From positions 1 through 32,023 of the forward strand of contig JAHJJI010000109.1 in NCBI GenBank assembly GCA_018823025.1: a stretch of 32,023 nt of DNA, given 5' to 3'. This document shows positions 7,772 to 30,950 of this stretch, one piece after another. Origin of the DNA: Gammaproteobacteria bacterium. GTDB lineage: Bacteria; Pseudomonadota; Gammaproteobacteria; Burkholderiales; Sulfuricellaceae. How positions within the stretch are numbered: position 1 is the first letter of the stretch; every line of letters begins with the position of its first letter. Made by a program: the position numbers and the translations under genes. The notes beneath the pieces were generated by a model. It saw only the letters and a list, made by a program, of their open reading frames with translations. It did no database searches and was not told where the DNA came from.

Positions 7772-8941
7772 TTAATCTTCAGGCCAGTAGTCGGTCGCAA
7801 TGCCATCACCCAGATCAGCTTCGATCAGGCGGCGCCGCACTTCGAGCAATCGGCTGATCAGCTTGGGCTCCCTCTTTTCGTAGCCTTCAGGATCAGCGAC
7901 ACGGTTAACTACTACGCCGAGCAGTTCGGTGATCGCATTGCCAATCGAATTCTGACTGATAGTAACGATCAACTTGCCTTCGTCATTACGATAGATGAGT
8001 TGCTTGAACGCAGGCTGCCAGCGTATGGCATTGGCGTATTTTGCATCGACAATGCAATTGTCGCGCACCTTCTTTGCTGTTTTCAGAAAATCATTGTTAA
8101 ACAGCAGCACGCCCTCGACTTCATCCGGGTAATAGGCGTCACTCGGGAGTGGCGCATTACGAGTGGAGACCTGCGAGAAGAAGGTGCGATAGAAGTCGAT
8201 AAAACCTTTCAGCACCTCATCGTATTCTTTCCAGAAGCGCACATCTTTCAGCGCCGCCGAACCACCCTGAATCTCCCAGCTGGGCAGACCCTGCGGGTAG
8301 CCCGTCAGTGCAATGCATGCATCCGCTTCGCTGGCGGGCTTGAGAATTTCCAGCTCCAGCGCCTTGTCGAAAAACTCGCGGTAAACATCCCGCATATAGG
8401 CCTGAAACAGGCTGTGCTGGCCACCATCGGTCAAATTGGGGTTTTTCAGATCAGCCAGCTTGGCGTTGCGCAGTTCGTCTTTGGGAAAAACAATGAAGTG
8501 ATTGTGCAACATGCGGATACTCGGCACACCTGGTGAGGTCAGCGGCCAGGTAGCATCCAGACTCGCCTCGCCCGCCAGAATCAACGCCTCATCCGGATCG
8601 GGGTATTGCTCCAGCATGTAGTCGATGATGATCTGGTTCATCCGGTTCCACACATGCTTCACATTATCCGGAACCTGAGTGCGACGGACCGGGCGCCCCA
8701 GCGGATTGAGGATGCATTGCGAAGTATTGTAGATGATCGAGGCATCGAACTCGTTGCTGTGGCCCAATGCCTTGCGATACAGCAACAGGTTTTCATCGTT
8801 CATCAACAATCCATTGTTGTGCATCAGATCGTTGAGATTTTCAGTACTGTTGAAAAATTCGTTGTGCTTCATCCCCTCCGGCACTTCCAGGGGGATAGGG
8901 CGGAAAGGGGTGGTGATTTCGCGGGGGCCGGATTGCGTCAT
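7772..8941 (-). CDS. Unrecognised conserved-looking soluble protein, 389 aa
   Basis: I do not recognise this family. The protein has no signal peptide, membrane segment, repeats or cofactor-type Cys cluster. It is acidic and rich in Asn and Asp, and reads like a folded enzyme. Notable stretches are LLLYRKALGHSNEFDASIIY, a mid-protein LHNHFIVFPKDEL that loosely recalls the beta-strand and HxH of HIT or nucleotidylyltransferase folds, and ALTGYPQGLPSWEIQGGSA. The HxH resemblance is weak and no function is claimed from it. I chose the ATG at 8941 (MTQSGPREITTPF), which has a TGGAATC site about 9 bases upstream. The open frame runs 29 codons further, but that part lies in a repeat element. It sits between der and a GGDEF-EAL gene inside an otherwise standard operon. 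Confidence 0.8.
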   Translation of the reverse strand: MTQSGPREITTPFRPIPLEVPEGMKHNEFFNSTENLNDLMHNNGLLMNDENLLLYRKALGHSNEFDASIIYNTSQCILNPLGRPVRRTQVPDNVKHVWNRMNQIIIDYMLEQYPDPDEALILAGEASLDATWPLTSPGVPSIRMLHNHFIVFPKDELRNAKLADLKNPNLTDGGQHSLFQAYMRDVYREFFDKALELEILKPASEADACIALTGYPQGLPSWEIQGGSAALKDVRFWKEYDEVLKGFIDFYRTFFSQVSTRNAPLPSDAYYPDEVEGVLLFNNDFLKTAKKVRDNCIVDAKYANAIRWQPAFKQLIYRNDEGKLIVTISQNSIGNAITELLGVVVNRVADPEGYEKREPKLISRLLEVRRRLIEADLGDGIATDYWPED

Positions 8942-8963: not shown

Positions 8964-9052
8964 GTAATGGGTAATGAGTGATCGGTGAGGCGAAAAAGCG
9001 AGGTTGGCGCGGTTTTGACTTTCCACATCCTACATCACCCGTCCCCCATCGC
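8964..9052. repeat. Heptamer-armed repeat element, copy A
   Basis: This 89-bp element fills the gap between der and the unknown gene. Its left arm (8964-8991) is four in-phase heptamers of the type GTAATGG or GTGAGGC. A 33-base core (8992-9024) follows, starting GAAAAAGCG and containing GCGGTTTTGA. The right arm (9025-9052) is four in-phase heptamers in the opposite sense, of the type ACATCAC. The core aligns with that of the copy at 10460-10549 in the same orientation, about three quarters identical by eye. Its end touches the der stop codon. Confidence 0.75.
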
Positions 9053-9054
9053 TC

Positions 9055-10452
9055 TCAGCCGTACAGCTTCCGACCACGCCGGCGCTGGCGGTGGGCGCGC
9101 TTCTCATCAGCTTCGGTCTTGGGTGCAGGCACCCTGTCAGCAAAGGGGTTATGCCCCTGTTTGAATTGTACCCTGAGCGGCGTACCCGTCAACTCGAACG
9201 CTTGGCGGAAAGTGCTTTCCAGATAGCGCTTATAGCTGGCCGAAAGGCTCGACAGCGAGGTACCGTGAATAATCACCAGCGGCGGATTGGATCCACCCTG
9301 ATGAGCGTAGCGCAATTTGGGACGGAACGGGCCGGACTTGGGTGGCTGGTGCTGGGTGGTCGCTTCCATCAGGATACGGGTCAACCTCGGCGTTGGCATC
9401 TTGATCATGGCCGACGCATAGGCGCCGTCGATGGATTTGAACAGGCCACCCACGCCGCTTCCCTGCAGGGCAGAAATATAGTGAAATTTGGCAAAATCCA
9501 GAAACTGTAGCTTGCGCGCGATGTCGTTCTTCACCACTTCGCGCCGGTCAGCGGAAAGATCATCCCATTTGTTCACAGCCACCACCAGGGCACGACCGCT
9601 TTCCAGAATAAAGCCTGCGATATGAGCATCCTGCTCGGACACGTCCTGACGGGCATCCAGCACCAGCACCACCACGTTGGCATCTTCCACCGCCTGCAGG
9701 GTTTTCACCACGGAAAACTTCTCGATCGCCTCGAACACCTTACCGCGCTTGCGAATGCCGGCGGTATCGATCAGGGTGTAATGCTTGCTATCGCGCTCGA
9801 AATCGATGTAGATACTGTCGCGCGTCGTACCCGGCTGGTCGAAGGCGATGACCCGTTCCTCGCCGAGCAGGCTGTTGACCAGCGTGGACTTGCCCACGTT
9901 GGGGCGGCCAACGATGGCAATCTTGGGGTGATCGTCCTCCTCCTCGTCAACTTCATCCAGCGGGAAGCTCTCCAGCGCCAGTTCCACCAGGTCATGGACA
10001 CCTTCGCCATGCGCACCCGAAATCACCAGCGGGTCGCCCAGACCGAGTTCATAGAATTCGGCAGCAACCACATCGCGCCGCATGCCCTCCGCCTTGTTCA
10101 CCGCCAGAAATAAGGGTCGGCCCATTTTCCGCAACTGGTCGGCGATGATTTTGTCCTGGGCGGCCAAGCCCTGGCGCGCATCGACCAAGAACACGATAGC
10201 ATCCGCCTCAGCTACCGCCTGCAGGGTCTGCCGCGCCATTTCGTGAAGAATACCGTCCTTCGCCACCGGCTCGAAACCACCGGTATCCACCACCAGATAG
10301 GGCCTGTCTCCCACTCGGCCATGGCCGTAATGGCGGTCGCGCGTCAACCCTGGCAGATCCGCAACGAGCGCGTCGCGGCTTCGGGTTAGCCGGTTGAATA
10401 AAGTGGATTTGCCGACATTGGGACGGCCGACCAGTACGAGTGTGGGTTTCAT
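9055..10452 (-). CDS. der: Ribosome biogenesis GTPase Der (EngA)
   Basis: Der is an essential double GTPase that helps mature the 50S subunit. The 465 residues carry two tandem G domains. The first has GRPNVGKST at residues 8-16, LPGLTRD and DTGGFE; the second has GRPNVGKST again near residue 183, [16 protein letters not shown] and NKWDD. A KH-like C-terminal domain ends in a basic tail ([15 protein letters not shown]). Length is normal. The start [12 protein letters not shown] is canonical, yet the bases before the ATG are CT-rich heptamers of a repeat element with no Shine-Dalgarno. It lies downstream of bamB and is flanked on both sides by copies of that element. Confidence 0.97.
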
Positions 10453-10459
10453 GAGTTCG

Positions 10460-10549
10460 GTTAGGCGTTAGGGGTTAGAGATGAGGCGAAAAAACGGCGA
10501 CGGTGCGGATTTTGATTTTTCGCCTCACGCCTCACCTCTCACCCCTCAC
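10460..10549. repeat. Heptamer-armed repeat element, copy B
   Basis: This 90-bp element fills almost the whole bamB-der gap. The left arm (10460-10487) is four in-phase heptamers of the type GTTAGGG, and the right arm (10522-10549) is four of the type GCCTCAC. The 34-base core lies between them. At the core edges TGAGGCGAAAAA (10482-10493) and TTTTTCGCCTCA (10516-10527) form a perfect 12-bp inverted repeat, so the transcript can fold into a long imperfect hairpin. The layout, length and core match copy A at 8964-9052. Confidence 0.8.
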
Positions 10550-10562
10550 GAAGTTATTAAGT

Positions 10563-11741
10563 TTATTGCACGGTTAGCGCGTACAACCCGCCATTGCGAG
10601 TTTGCACCAGGAAACCCTTGTTCAGCGCCACGGGAGGCGCGCCGATCTGGCTGCCATCGGTGGCAATGCGGGCTGCGAAGCTGCCATCTTCCCGTGACAG
10701 CAGATGAACATAACCCTGTACATCGGCCACCGCGATATAGCGTCCAAGAGCCAGTGGCGCAGTAACTTGGCGGGCTAGCAGCTTATCCTGCTTCCACAGG
10801 CTCGCACCGCTGTTCTTGTCGAGAGCATGGATTGCACCTCGGGTATCGCTGACGTAAACGGTGCGATCATCCATCGCCAGGCCGGAAGAGCTGGAGACAT
10901 CACGCGCCCAGAGCAAGTTGCCGCTGGCAATATCGAAGCAGGCGGTACGTCCCTGATAAGCAGTGGCGCAGATCATTCGACCATCCACCACCGGCAGGCT
11001 GCTGACATCGGTCACACGCTCCAGTTCGGTGGTTCCACGCGGCAGGGCCACGGTCGCTTCCCAGCCCATATTGCCGGTCGCCAGGTTGAGCGCCACCAGC
11101 TTGCCACCGGCAAAACCTGCGAATACCGCACCGTGCGCCACTACCACGCCGGCATTGCTGCGCAGGGAGAGCGCCGGCATGGCACGCTGGTATATCCACT
11201 TGCGCTTGCCATCCTTGGCATCCAGTCCGAAAATACGGCCGTCGCCGGTGCGTACTACCACGATGTCGCTAGCCACCTGCGGTGCACTCATGATTTCGCT
11301 CGAAAGACGTGCCTGCCACAGTGGCTGCCCCTTGGTGTCAAAGGCCATCACCTCGCCCTTGGCGGTTCCAACCACCACCAGAGCGCTGTCCGCACCGACG
11401 CCGCCGGAAATCTTGCGCCCGGAATCAATGTTCCACTGCGGCTTGCCGGTATCCGCACTGAAACGGGAAATCTTTCCCTCCAGGCCCGCCGCGTAAATAC
11501 CATCACTCACCACAGCGGGAAACAGCACCGTATCCCCGGCCCCTCCGACACGCTCCTGCCAACTCGACTTGAGTTCAGCAGTAGATTTGAATTCGACCAG
11601 CGCCGCCAGCTTCTCACCGGCATCCTTGCCGCCCCAAAGACCAAAACCGGTGGAAACCTTCTCCCCCATGCCACTGCAACCCGCCAGCTGGAAAATTGTT
11701 GCCAGAAGCAACAGCCATCTTATTGGCACATTGCGCATCAT
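10563..11741 (-). CDS. bamB: Outer membrane assembly lipoprotein BamB
   Basis: BamB is the beta-propeller lipoprotein of the BAM complex that inserts beta-barrel proteins into the outer membrane. The 392 residues start with a lipoprotein signal (hydrophobic WLLLLATIF and the lipobox LAGC, Cys about 22). Repeated PQQ/WD-like propeller blades follow, for example FSADTGKPQWNIDSGRK, FDTKGQPLWQARL and FDIASGNLLWARDV. Two ATGs are adjacent at the start; the first (11741) overlaps the stop of the upstream gene and has GGGAGA about 8 bases before it. Order yfgM-bamB-der is the standard one. Confidence 0.95.
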   Translation of the reverse strand: MMRNVPIRWLLLLATIFQLAGCSGMGEKVSTGFGLWGGKDAGEKLAALVEFKSTAELKSSWQERVGGAGDTVLFPAVVSDGIYAAGLEGKISRFSADTGKPQWNIDSGRKISGGVGADSALVVVGTAKGEVMAFDTKGQPLWQARLSSEIMSAPQVASDIVVVRTGDGRIFGLDAKDGKRKWIYQRAMPALSLRSNAGVVVAHGAVFAGFAGGKLVALNLATGNMGWEATVALPRGTTELERVTDVSSLPVVDGRMICATAYQGRTACFDIASGNLLWARDVSSSSGLAMDDRTVYVSDTRGAIHALDKNSGASLWKQDKLLARQVTAPLALGRYIAVADVQGYVHLLSREDGSFAARIATDGSQIGAPPVALNKGFLVQTRNGGLYALTVQ

Positions 11742-17629: not shown

Positions 17630-17698
17630 CGCACCCTCTCCCCAACCGAGATGAGGGTTGCCACCTGGGCGCTCAATCGCGCACACCCCTCACCCCAA

Positions 17699-17722
17699 CC
17701 CTCTCCCGCAAGCGGGAGAGGG
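17699..17722. repeat. CCCTCTCCCGC / GCGGGAGAGGG hairpin between ndk and rlmN
   Basis: The 11-base arms are perfectly complementary, separated by AA. The hairpin is about 50 bases after the ndk stop. No U-tract follows on the minus strand, so it is not a simple terminator. A second CCCTCTCCCC stretch at about 17634 supplies the purine-rich ribosome-binding site of rlmN. Similar arms are often seen as dispersed intergenic hairpins in proteobacteria. Confidence 0.55.
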
Positions 17723-23429: not shown

Positions 23430-24857
23430 CTATATTGCTCTCTCGAGTTTTACAATCACGCCGGGCTCTCCTTCCTGTACCCGGTAATCGCAATCTATTC
23501 CGACACCGGGCACGAATGCCAGTTTTTCCCCACTAAACAGTAGCGGCAGTCGCTGCCGTTGCCAGGGAGGCATTCCCGCCTCCTGCAACAGGTTTTTCAA
23601 ACTGCGCGTAGGCCTGAGGCAATCCGGGCGCAGACGCTCTCCACCCTGGCGCAACCTGATCGTAACCGGTGCGGAAGTGAGTCTGGCCAGACTCAAACCC
23701 TGCCCCGTTGTCCATTCAAATACCAACCGGCCACCCGACCCTGGCAAATCCAGCGCATCCTGGAGCGACCAGATTAATGCCGCTTCCGGCAACGGCGCAA
23801 GTATCTTTTTCTTACACTCGGGCAATTCCCTCGCCCCACCCACTCGAGGGCAAGTAGCAGTGGGTTCAAGATGCACCTCCCCACGATAGCGCCTGATCAC
23901 AGCACTTCCCAGGGAAATGCGAATCTGGGCATCATCACGGGCACTGCATAGTTGTTGCAGCAGGTTTTCCAACCGCCCGGCAGAAGGCATGGAAATTCCC
24001 AACTCTGCCAGCCAGTAGCGCAACAGGTTCCTGGCACGCGCCCCGGACAGTCTGTGCAGGGCATCCACCCGCAAATTGCCATTGATCACGGCAATCGCGG
24101 CATCCAGCCGAGCCAGGTCGTCAGCCAACTGCGCGCTTTCTGCCAAGTTCCGGCTGGCACGTGAAAAGGTTACACGATATCCGGGAAAGCGCTTCTCCAG
24201 TTCGGGCATGACACGGTGGCGCAGGTAATTGCGGTCGTAGGAAATATCTGCATTGCTCTCATCCTCGACCCATTGCAACTTGTGCAGTGCCGCGTAATCG
24301 AGAATCAAGCGCCGCGGCACATCGAGCAGAGGGCGAAGATAACGAGGCGTTTTCACCCCCCCCTCACCCCTCACCTCTAACCCCTCACGCATTTCACCCA
24401 TAGCGCTCAGGCCCTTCGCTCCAGCGCCACGCAGCAACTGGAGCAGCAGCGTTTCAGCCTGATCGTCAAGATGTTGCGCCAGCACGACAAAATCAGCCTG
24501 CTGTTCAGCAAACGCCTGATAGCGGGCGTCCCGCGCCAGCGCCTCCAGGCTCTCACCCGGTTGGCGCTTGAGATCGACCTTAACGACTTGCAAAGGAATG
24601 TTGTATCCGACGCACAAGCGGGCGCAAAACTCGGTCCAATCAGCCGAATTCGGGCTGATCTGATGGTTGACGTGAATAGCGGAAAGGGAGAAATTCAGGC
24701 TGGTGCGAAGTTGTGCAAGGATGTCGAGCAGAGCCACGGAATCCGCCCCGCCGCTCAGTGCCAGCGTGAGATACCGGCCCGGTTGAACCCAACTTTTTAG
24801 TTTGGCTTCGACAAACGCGGGCAGATCACTTGGCAGCAGTTTCTTTGAACTTGCCAT
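23430..24857 (-). CDS. tilS: tRNA(Ile)-lysidine synthase TilS
   Basis: TilS changes C34 of the CAU-anticodon tRNA-Ile to lysidine so that it reads AUA. The 475 residues have the PP-loop SGGADS (35-40), IHVNHQ, and [21 protein letters not shown]. The TilS substrate-binding and C-terminal domains are present, the latter with [32 protein letters not shown]. Residues about 155-171, between LSAMGEM and RYLRPLLDV, are an extra loop encoded by tandem GTGAGGG heptamers. The ATG at 24857 lies inside the end of accA (32-base overlap). Confidence 0.94.
24361..24388. repeat. Four in-phase heptamers inside tilS
   Basis: Four adjacent heptamers of the type CCCTCAC (one is CTCTAAC) fill 24361-24388. They are the same words as the arms of the elements around der but lack the core. 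They are translated as part of tilS without breaking the frame. Confidence 0.75.
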
Positions 24858-27631: not shown

Positions 27632-27922
27632 TTAGGTGATGCGTTGCAGATCCTTGAGCTTCTCCTCGTACTCCTCCTTGCCGATTTCGCTGCGCGCATA
27701 ACGCTGCCGCAGAATCTCCACGGCCTTGTCCTCGCGCTGCGCCTTGGCGCTGCCTTTTGAGGCCGCCAGGAACAGCCAGCGCAACAGAAAGACCAGCCCG
27801 GCAAGAATCAGGCCCCACCAGAGGATCATGGGTATCCAGCCGAAACCGTGGAATCCCCACCAGCCGAAATGATCCATCAAGCCGTGACCGTATCCGTAAC
27901 CATATCCACCCATACCTTTCAC
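27632..27922 (-). CDS. Small membrane protein with C-terminal SHOCT domain
   Basis: This is a 96-residue protein with a Gly/Tyr/His/Trp-rich start (MKGMGGYGYGYGHGLMDHFG). One membrane segment (about 28-53, WIPMILWWGLILAGLVFLLRWLF) and a C-terminal SHOCT domain (about 68-94, ILRQRYARSEIGKEEYEEKLKDL) follow. SHOCT is a short helical oligomerisation motif of unclear role. The His- and Trp-rich start could bind metal, but no motif proves it. It lies 68 bases downstream of the Met-rich Spy-like gene on the same strand, probably in one transcript. Confidence 0.85.
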   Translation of the reverse strand: MKGMGGYGYGYGHGLMDHFGWWGFHGFGWIPMILWWGLILAGLVFLLRWLFLAASKGSAKAQREDKAVEILRQRYARSEIGKEEYEEKLKDLQRIT

Positions 27923-27990
27923 TCCAGAATTCGGTCCCCAGAGCTCCGTTGGTGATCCACTCCATCGGAGGATGCTGGCCGGCCGAATTT

Positions 27991-28563
27991 CTACTCGTCC
28001 ATCATCCAGGCCGGACCGAAGCTCCGCAGCTTTCCCTTCTGCTCCTTGGTGAGAAGCGCCTCCATGCGGTTGTGGGCGTCCACCGACTGCTCCACCATCT
28101 GCCGGCGCAGTTCGCCGATCTTGTTGTACTGGTTACCGATGGCTGCCGGGTCGCGCTTGTCCGCAGCGTAGAGTCCGCGCAGCGTGGCATTCTCCCCCTG
28201 CATCTTGGTCATCAGATCCCAGCGCTTTTTGTGCAGTTCCTCGTAAATTTCAGAGATTTTTTTCTGCTGGTCCTCTTTCAGGTCGGGCAGCCACATCGGG
28301 CCATAGCCCCTCATCATTCCGTAACCTTGCCCCATCATGCCGCCATAGCCATGACCCATCATTCCCTGCCCCATCATCCCGGGACCCATCATTCCCTGTC
28401 CCATCATCCCTGGACCCATCATCCCTGGACCCATCATCCCTGGACCCATCATCCCGTAGGGGCAGCCGGCTTGCAGTTTCACTTCGTCGTCCGCGACGAC
28501 AGCGAAAGGCATAAGCAAGATAAAACCCGTCGTCAACCCTGCAATTAGCTTGTTCGTCCTCAT
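27991..28563 (-). CDS. Spy/CpxP-like periplasmic protein with Met-Met-Gly repeats
   Basis: The 190 residues start with a signal peptide (about 1-24, cleavage after AVVA). A repeat region (38-72) of seven pentapeptides MMGPG, MMGQG or MMGHG follows, then a looser Gly/Tyr/Met stretch to about 89. A helical region (about 92-190) has the LxxxQ-type motifs of the Spy/CpxP family (LKEDQQKKISEIYEEL, LLTKEQKGKLRSFG). Spy and CpxP are ATP-independent periplasmic chaperones or stress sensors, and relatives respond to metals. The Met clusters suggest soft-metal (copper or silver) binding; that is inference. The ATG at 28563 has GGAG 8 bases upstream. A SHOCT gene follows and lpxR diverges. Confidence 0.82.
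   Translation of the reverse strand: MRTNKLIAGLTTGFILLMPFAVVADDEVKLQAGCPYGMMGPGMMGPGMMGPGMMGQGMMGPGMMGQGMMGHGYGGMMGQGYGMMRGYGPMWLPDLKEDQQKKISEIYEELHKKRWDLMTKMQGENATLRGLYAADKRDPAAIGNQYNKIGELRRQMVEQSVDAHNRMEALLTKEQKGKLRSFGPAWMMDE
28355..28459. repeat. Seven 15-bp tandem repeats encoding the Met-Met-Gly pentapeptides
   Basis: Seven consecutive 15-bp units run from 28355 to 28459. Three adjacent units (28400-28444) are identical, each reading CCCATCATCCCTGGA on the plus strand. The identity suggests recent slippage or unequal exchange, so the copy number may vary between strains. Confidence 0.85.
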
Positions 28564-30865: not shown

Positions 30866-30916
30866 TGTCAACTGAGCAAGCCGCGCTCGCTGAATATCCT
30901 TTTCAAAACGTTCCAC

Positions 30917-30937
30917 CCCTCACCTATAACCCCTCCC
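30917..30937. repeat. Three in-phase heptamers upstream of prfB
   Basis: CCCTCAC, CTATAAC and CCCTCCC lie head to tail at 30917-30937, the same class of words as the element arms around der. They occupy the place where a -35 box for the prfB promoter would be. Confidence 0.55.
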
Positions 30938-30950
30938 CCGCCTCCCCATG

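Follow-up and report, generated by a model that had tools for sequence, protein, structure and literature searches.

Two mirrored heptamer elements beside der belong to a dispersed family of palindromes that differ in arm word and core orientation among related genomes

The gene der, in the 32,023-nucleotide stretch of DNA analysed here (contig JAHJJI010000109.1; hereafter the window), is flanked by two short elements of the same design, in which a run of heptamers, a core and a run of inverted heptamers follow one another. The locus raises the question of what such elements are, and of what becomes of them at the same site in related species. The closest Der matches in named genomes are mostly to Sulfuricella MAGs (97 percent for L074), which places the window in the genus Sulfuricella. 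In what follows, G000 denotes the host's own genome, and G005 denotes the reference relative, which is in two contigs and has a Der that is 100 percent identical.

The coordinates and the layout given for both copies in the original prediction were right (Table 1). Copy B (10460-10549), in the bamB-der gap, has a 34-base core with four GTNAGGN heptamers to its left and four inverted ones to its right; its arms agree with GTNAGGN at 18/20 and 19/20 specified bases, and either value was reached by 0 of 2000 block shuffles. Copy A (8964-9052), behind der, is a decayed copy with GTNATGN words, and its arms agree with GTNAGGN at 16/20 and 12/20 specified bases, values that were reached together by 0 of 2000 shuffles. 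We call copy A decayed because the score of its right arm, taken alone, was reached by 47 of 2000 shuffles. The cores of the two copies are identical at 25 of 34 aligned columns, in agreement with the expected three quarters. Folding of the 90-bp RNA, which had been proposed as a check, bears out the structure for one copy and not for the other: copy B folds more strongly than its own shuffles (z -3.42, 0/200), whereas copy A folds no more strongly than its own shuffles (z -0.25, 74/200). A search of the window against Rfam gave no match at the gathering score. Copy A adjoins a reading frame for a 389-residue protein (7772-8941) that has no Pfam match and whose start can be recognised by eye beside der in several relatives.

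Table 1. Positions in the window of the two elements beside der, the genes next to them and the array within tilS
Feature	Positions	Strand	Sequence or remark
Copy A, left arm	8964..8991	+	GTAATGG GTAATGA GTGATCG GTGAGGC
Copy A, core	8992..9024	+	GAAAAAGCG...GGTTTTGACTTTCC
Copy A, right arm (decayed)	9025..9052	-	GTGATGT-type words still legible by eye in heptamer phase
Der	9055-10452	-	
Copy B, left arm	10460..10487	+	GTTAGGC GTTAGGG GTTAGAG ATGAGGC
Copy B, core (34 bases)	10488..10521	+	GAAAAA...GGATTTTGATTTTTC
Copy B, right arm (four inverted heptamers)	10522..10549	-	GTGAGGG GTGAGAG GTGAGGC GTGAGGC (minus-strand reading)
BamB	10563-11741	-	
Single four-heptamer array, in frame within tilS	24361..24388	-	same word class as copies A and B

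The results indicate that the two copies belong to a dispersed, non-autonomous family, as had been proposed: further two-arm copies with related cores were found, and the related cores sought across the whole genome exist at other slots. With copy B as the query, 36 matches at E<=10 were obtained in the own genome, many of them with one arm only. A three-heptamer pattern with at most two mismatches gave 110 overlapping matches in the own genome, versus 26 for the same pattern read backward; with at most one mismatch, the counts were 197 for G005, 82 for G011, 66 for the own genome and 1 for G006, versus 16, 6, 3 and 3, respectively, for the backward pattern. The backward pattern is not a clean null, because GGANTGN is itself a heptamer word, and tandem units of it were recognised by eye next to an element at L416. 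At that locus, in G089, GGATYGN-type heptamers adjoin a GTNAGG element, and their word is consistent with the reversed search pattern (by eye).

Parsing of the retrieved loci yielded 84 two-arm rows (81 in G005, G000 and G011), five of which are second readings of one site and one of which (L063:2306) is unconvincing, together with 49 single arrays. The filter used for arm statistics, which required at least three filtered heptamers per arm and a core of less than 45 bases, kept 63 of the 81 rows, and in these 63 copies exactly four units is the mode (82 of 126 arms). The elements start with GTNAGG and are mostly about 70-100 bases long, with cores mostly of 10 to 40 bases (range 5 to 59) whose edges often read G(T)AAAA by eye; position 7 of the G005 units is A in 43 percent, G in 35 percent and C in 15 percent. 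Terminal inverted repeats, a MITE criterion, are present in the form of the inverted arms of about 28 bases. Alignment of cores from different slots gave, over 190 pairs, a mean score of 5.9, with 17 reached by 8 pairs, 21.5 by 2 pairs, and a maximum of 23; these cores are related, often with TTTTGACTTT near one end, and the copies therefore have more in common than the word. When 400 kb of G005 were scanned for inverted repeats without regard to the word, 21 strong ones were found (17 of them listed), versus 0 in two block-shuffled controls. Tandem arms are present in 11 of the 21 (nine flagged by script, two by eye), with a period of 7 in nine, 8 in one and 9 in one.

In a sample of the order that reaches beyond the genus, one or more exact three-heptamer matches are present in 30 of 120 genomes, including three from this genus; in a few of the 30, the backward pattern matches just as often. 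Among 20 stretches from six matching genomes, 14 could be read as two arms around a core, nine of these with four plus four heptamers; the cores of the 14 look different, and one further stretch has arms 156 bases apart. The sole genome of another genus of the family in the 120-genome sample (G012) has no three-heptamer match. We conclude that the layout has a patchy distribution that extends to distant families of the order.

The family can be compared between species slot by slot. We took 40 G005 sites with usable flanks, left out 14 and restored two of these, the der slots, to obtain 28 slots, and we examined the orthologous gaps in G000, G011, G003 and G006, of which 93 of 112 were resolved. 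With a word classifier that was defined after the slots had been seen and that gave 0 positives on 246 shuffled gaps, the 93 resolved gaps comprise 25 with GTNAGG, 36 with another tandem word, 10 that are empty, 21 with none and 1 that is long. The 36 gaps of other classes have units of 7 to 10 bases, and 15 of them are GTRATG; three GTRATG gaps, at two slots, keep the same core and are therefore rewritten copies rather than foreign elements. One or more relatives have, at 13 of the 28 slots, either a class whose units are 8, 9 or 10 bases long or the GTNCTGA word. At slot 329535, for example, G005 has GTNAGG, G000, G011 and G006 have a 9-base unit, and G003 has a 10-base unit. The empty sites that had been suggested for comparison do exist: the 10 empty gaps (<=20 bases) are spread over 7 slots. 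No target-site duplication was visible by eye at seven empty loci, representing six slots, where diverged flanks could hide short ones; an eighth locus gave no target stretch to read.

The two gaps beside der, for which ordinary intergenic sequence in relatives had been considered, fared differently. The bamB-der gap has a palindromic element by eye in 10 of the 10 genus loci listed, a GTNAGG element in G000, G005 and G003 and a CGCAAAGG-type element in G011 and G006; the G006 gap was scored as none by the classifier. In that gap (L262), a GGGAGGGG-type palindrome is seemingly nested in an arm of the CGCAAAGG-type element (by eye). The copy A gap contains a recognisable element in G000, G005, G011 and G009, but no strong inverted repeat in G003 and G006. 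Recombination between the two copies had been thought able to delete or amplify der, and this idea found no support: the longest exact direct match between copies A and B is only 12 bases, and both slots beside der in G000, G011, G003 and G006 align to those of G005. Loss of der by this route is considered unlikely.

As controls, we followed in G000 and G006 a set of 22 random G005 gaps, picked to lack an element, to be non-divergent and to measure 5-150 bases, which gave 22 matches in G000 (20 loci used) and 10 in G006, with 18 and 8 gaps resolved, respectively; one positive control gap (377372) is not element-free, having a decayed element in G005 itself. Among element slots without a GTNAGG copy, 23 of 35 have a tandem class, versus 6 of 26 control gaps (p 0.0017; G000 and G006 together). 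For G000 alone, the values are 12/16 versus 3/18 (p 0.0014), and for G006 alone, they are 11/19 versus 3/8 (p 0.42, not significant). The proportion is 21/33 (p 0.0034) upon removal of rows with rewritten arms on the same core, and 14/26, versus 6/26 in controls, upon restriction to words other than GTNAGG and GTRATG. The results suggest that slots are re-used more than random gaps, and permissive sites with high turnover may be enough to explain this re-use.

Comparison of cores within slots shows changes of orientation. Copy B has the same core in the same orientation in G005 and G003 (also in G002 by eye), and the core of copy A is oriented as in the window in G005 and is likely inverted in G011. 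Overall, the inverted core alignment is better than the direct alignment at 4 of 17 slots having at least two typed cores; 4 of 29 core pairs, all of them with G000 at slot 838224 or 2295301, align no better than many shuffles and were counted as neither orientation. At slot 325986, the inverted alignment scores 36, versus 0 for the direct alignment, and all 36 bases match exactly. For the copy A slot, the scores are 21.5 versus -3 for G005 and G011 and 19 versus -5 for G000 and G011; at slot 2251429, they are 23 versus 7; and at slot 2404004, they are 17 versus 6. With the 190 between-slot pairs as the yardstick, the scores at the copy A slot and slot 2251429 stand at the extreme end and the score at slot 2404004 lies well within the range, and independent insertion in the opposite orientation is therefore possible at these three slots. 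We conclude that the core has been inverted between species with certainty at slot 325986 and likely at the copy A slot and slot 2251429; for slot 2404004, the indication is weak.

The arms can differ while the core is kept. At the copy A slot, both arms have GTGAGG-type words in G005, and GTNATG-type words in G011 and, more decayed, in G000 (by eye); at slot 2251429, both arms differ in words between G005 and G000 (by eye). The idea that the arms change at the level of the heptamer while the layout persists is thus borne out at two slots, where the words differ in both arms over the same core. The arms of one copy also resemble each other: the share of A at position 7 in the left arm correlates with that in the right arm, with r 0.70 in G005 (0 of 4000 permutations as high), 0.49 in G000 (177/4000) and 0.62 in G011 (27/4000). 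Agreement between arms is absent for position 7 = G or C, and for positions 3 and 5 in G005 and G000. Correction of one arm by the other at mirror positions, as in quasipalindrome repair, was considered and rejected: over 27 copies, 534 of 5000 permutations lay at or below the observed value. The match between mirrored positions thus falls short of significance and gives no support to templated correction through the hairpin. With agreement at the level of the copy and none at mirrored positions, homogenisation therefore seems to act on whole arrays rather than on single bases facing each other in the hairpin.

Arrays of the same kind occur inside genes. The tilS array of Table 1 was compared over 11 attempted loci, of which nine, including that of the own genome, were readable; G006 and G007 were unaligned there, and a fragment from G002 was left out. 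In the nine genomes, all repeats fall in one protein loop, after residues LSAM or MSAM, and the reading frames are open through the loop. The content of the loop, named by eye, differs between genomes: G000 has a GTNAGG array, G005 has units of CTGAGT type, and G001 has a 7-base unit (GGCACTC) four times in tandem; G010 and G004 both have a GTAGGAGCGGGCTTGCCCGCG palindrome, G008 has a different palindrome, and the stretches of G011, G003 and G009 are short. In the own genome, a frame read by eye as cysS also has a GTGAGGG array.

The window contains other repeats. A CACCCCTCACCCCAACCCTCTCCCGCAAGCGGGAGAGGG stretch with a hairpin lies at 17684-17722 in the rlmN-ndk gap; 15-base units (GACCCATCATCCCTG), about seven in tandem, occupy 28353-28455, near the end of frame 27757-28548; and a short CACCCCTCACCTATAACCCCTCCCCCG stretch at 30914-30940 is possibly a decayed heptamer array.

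With slightly better than even confidence, we interpret these elements as a dispersed family of small non-autonomous mobile palindromes, each with a core between two arms that measure about 28 bases and contain four heptamers of GTNAGGN or GTNATGN form. According to this hypothesis, copies would enter permissive slots (gaps behind genes and one tolerant protein loop) through a putative enzyme acting in trans; the arms would be homogenised by slippage or conversion, also between the two inverted arms; the core would be flipped through exchange between arms; and old copies would be deleted or overwritten, after which the slot would be used anew. A benefit to the host would not have to be assumed. 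A bolder version, which we hold to be improbable, is that one system keeps a fixed shape (tandem arms of about 28 to 33 bases and a flippable core) at standing slots while rewriting word and unit length (7, 8, 9 or 10), so that the GTGAGG, GTGATG, GTNCTGA, CGCARAG, CGCAGAGGA and CACGGATTAA elements would be states of one object, with arms that would be laid down or copied in trans as whole arrays, for example by templated array synthesis or by an enzyme recognising shape more than sequence.

The strongest competitor to mobile palindromes, in our view unlikely, is that the slots are selected for any RNA or DNA hairpin, for protection of mRNA ends or for attenuation between operon genes, and that a class switch amounts to the exchange of working hairpins. 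Slots are indeed shared by several classes, among them palindromes that lack tandem arms, and seven of the eight gaps flagged as tandem-armed in the G005 sample sit between co-directional genes; such gaps, however, are the majority anyway (211/286). Selection for a hairpin also accords poorly with the 10 of 93 orthologous gaps that are empty, with the folding of copy A, with repeats inside the TilS protein loop, and with the sister genus g2, in five listed genomes of which bamB and der nearly touch. Mobilisation as REP/REPIN elements by RAYT, a Y1 transposase, appears very unlikely. REP/REPIN palindromes are not known to have target duplications, and none was seen here. Short dispersed palindromes are likewise common to the two, to judge from the available parts of PMC3116915 and PMC3733652; Y1 matches occur in 11 of 12 genus genomes, and Y1-like frames of about 180 residues lie about 0.5 kb from a GTGAGG array in G000 (C101, L363) and G011 (C65:189673). 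Yet an array is present in only 1 of 30 scanned Y1 loci (L363), inside the neighbouring frame read by eye as cysS, and G005, the genome of the genus richest in pattern matches (197), has no Y1 match at E<=0.001. The family here further differs from REP/REPIN in its long, tandem-built arms, and no GTAG or CGTC tag stands beside a 20-40 base palindrome, as far as the tag is defined in the available passages. No transposase or other enzyme was found accompanying the family in a search that covered Y1 (PF01797). We conclude that, by the tests made, the family belongs neither to REP/RAYT nor to the classical MITEs.

Arrays that bind an HU/IHF-like protein structuring the chromosome would account for a preferred number of units, opposite-strand pairing at variable distance, and dispersal, and the available text of PMC2700814 makes such a proposal for the paired tandem sites of Geobacter metallireducens. 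From a conserved binding code one would not expect, however, that the same slot is filled, empty or occupied by other words and periods among related species, and G006 is almost without GTNAGG arrays (1 match, versus 3 for the reversed pattern); we regard binding arrays as distinctly unlikely. Even less credit, and about as little as to RAYT, is given to G-quadruplex repeats of the kind proposed for the GGGNATC heptamers of Xanthomonas and Nostoc: the four-unit mode, the G-rich strand and the convergent pairs fit, but many units have a GG pair only, G stands at position 7 in just 35 percent of G005 units, and other classes at the same slots, such as CACGGATTAA, are not G-run repeats. An ordinary intergenic spacer that is periodic by chance could be argued from copy A, which is weak alone, but chance is next to inconceivable for copy B (0/2000 shuffles), for dispersed related copies, and for inverted repeats that number 0 in two shuffled 400 kb versions; pattern counts, word-blind scan, parsed copies and shuffles together refute it.

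Tandem-armed palindromes have so far been noted bacterium by bacterium and word by word. The cross-species comparison of slots suggests that the word is changeable and that architecture and address persist. It offers a concrete route to how such elements are made, moved and flipped, and small length differences between close species, in gaps or in protein loops, can be repeat turnover.

The likeness to heptamer repeats of other bacteria, which had been pointed out for the two copies, is supported. The STRR repeats of heterocystous cyanobacteria are tandem heptamers, as in the family here, and we know of no STRR with a mirrored layout around a core. Three heptanucleotides of Calothrix are mentioned in the available part of PMC4692102, which also describes the GGGNATC heptamers of Xanthomonas: four units are commonest, 70 and 75 convergent pairs are present in two genomes, the repeats are mostly intergenic, and 83 percent are in the same context between two species. 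The GGGNATC repeats of Xanthomonas and Nostoc thus have the heptamer, the four-unit mode and the convergent pairs in common with the family here and differ in the word, which is a G-run; the term "core" is absent from the text of that paper. Beggiatoaceae have short, patchy intergenic arrays of the heptamer TAACTGA, with 169 direct sets versus one indirect (PMC4679880), and the outline and abstract of that paper, unlike the family here, contain no mirrored layout. In G. bemidjiensis, according to the passages available, multicopy sequences occupy 12 percent of intergenic regions, 31 percent of these with several, from which the authors infer non-random insertion (PMC2996986).

Searches of the literature with six unit strings gave no related paper, as judged from titles and the starts of abstracts, and among the matches listed for slot sharing by different repeat families, or for palindromes inserted in genes, none was on topic. 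The 'global regulator binding sites' of Geobacter metallireducens, predicted regulator sites of classes 1-3, consist of four GTTGCTYN, three TCTCCGTS[Y] and five MTYCTGA units, respectively, and are dispersed, mostly as opposite-strand pairs, at a distance that is variable in classes 1 and 2 (PMC2700814, available passages). As described there, they share with the family here three to five tandem units of 7-9 bases on two opposite-strand sites, and the class 3 word resembles by eye the GTNCTGA class found at shared slots here; the main word of the family here, GTNAGGN, is unlike the words of those sites. The passages of that paper report no between-species comparison of slots, core inversion or class exchange, and we did not find these three in the passages of the other papers cited. 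We conclude that elements of this kind are already known, and that the closest precedents are the paired tandem sites of Geobacter metallireducens and the heptamers of Xanthomonas.
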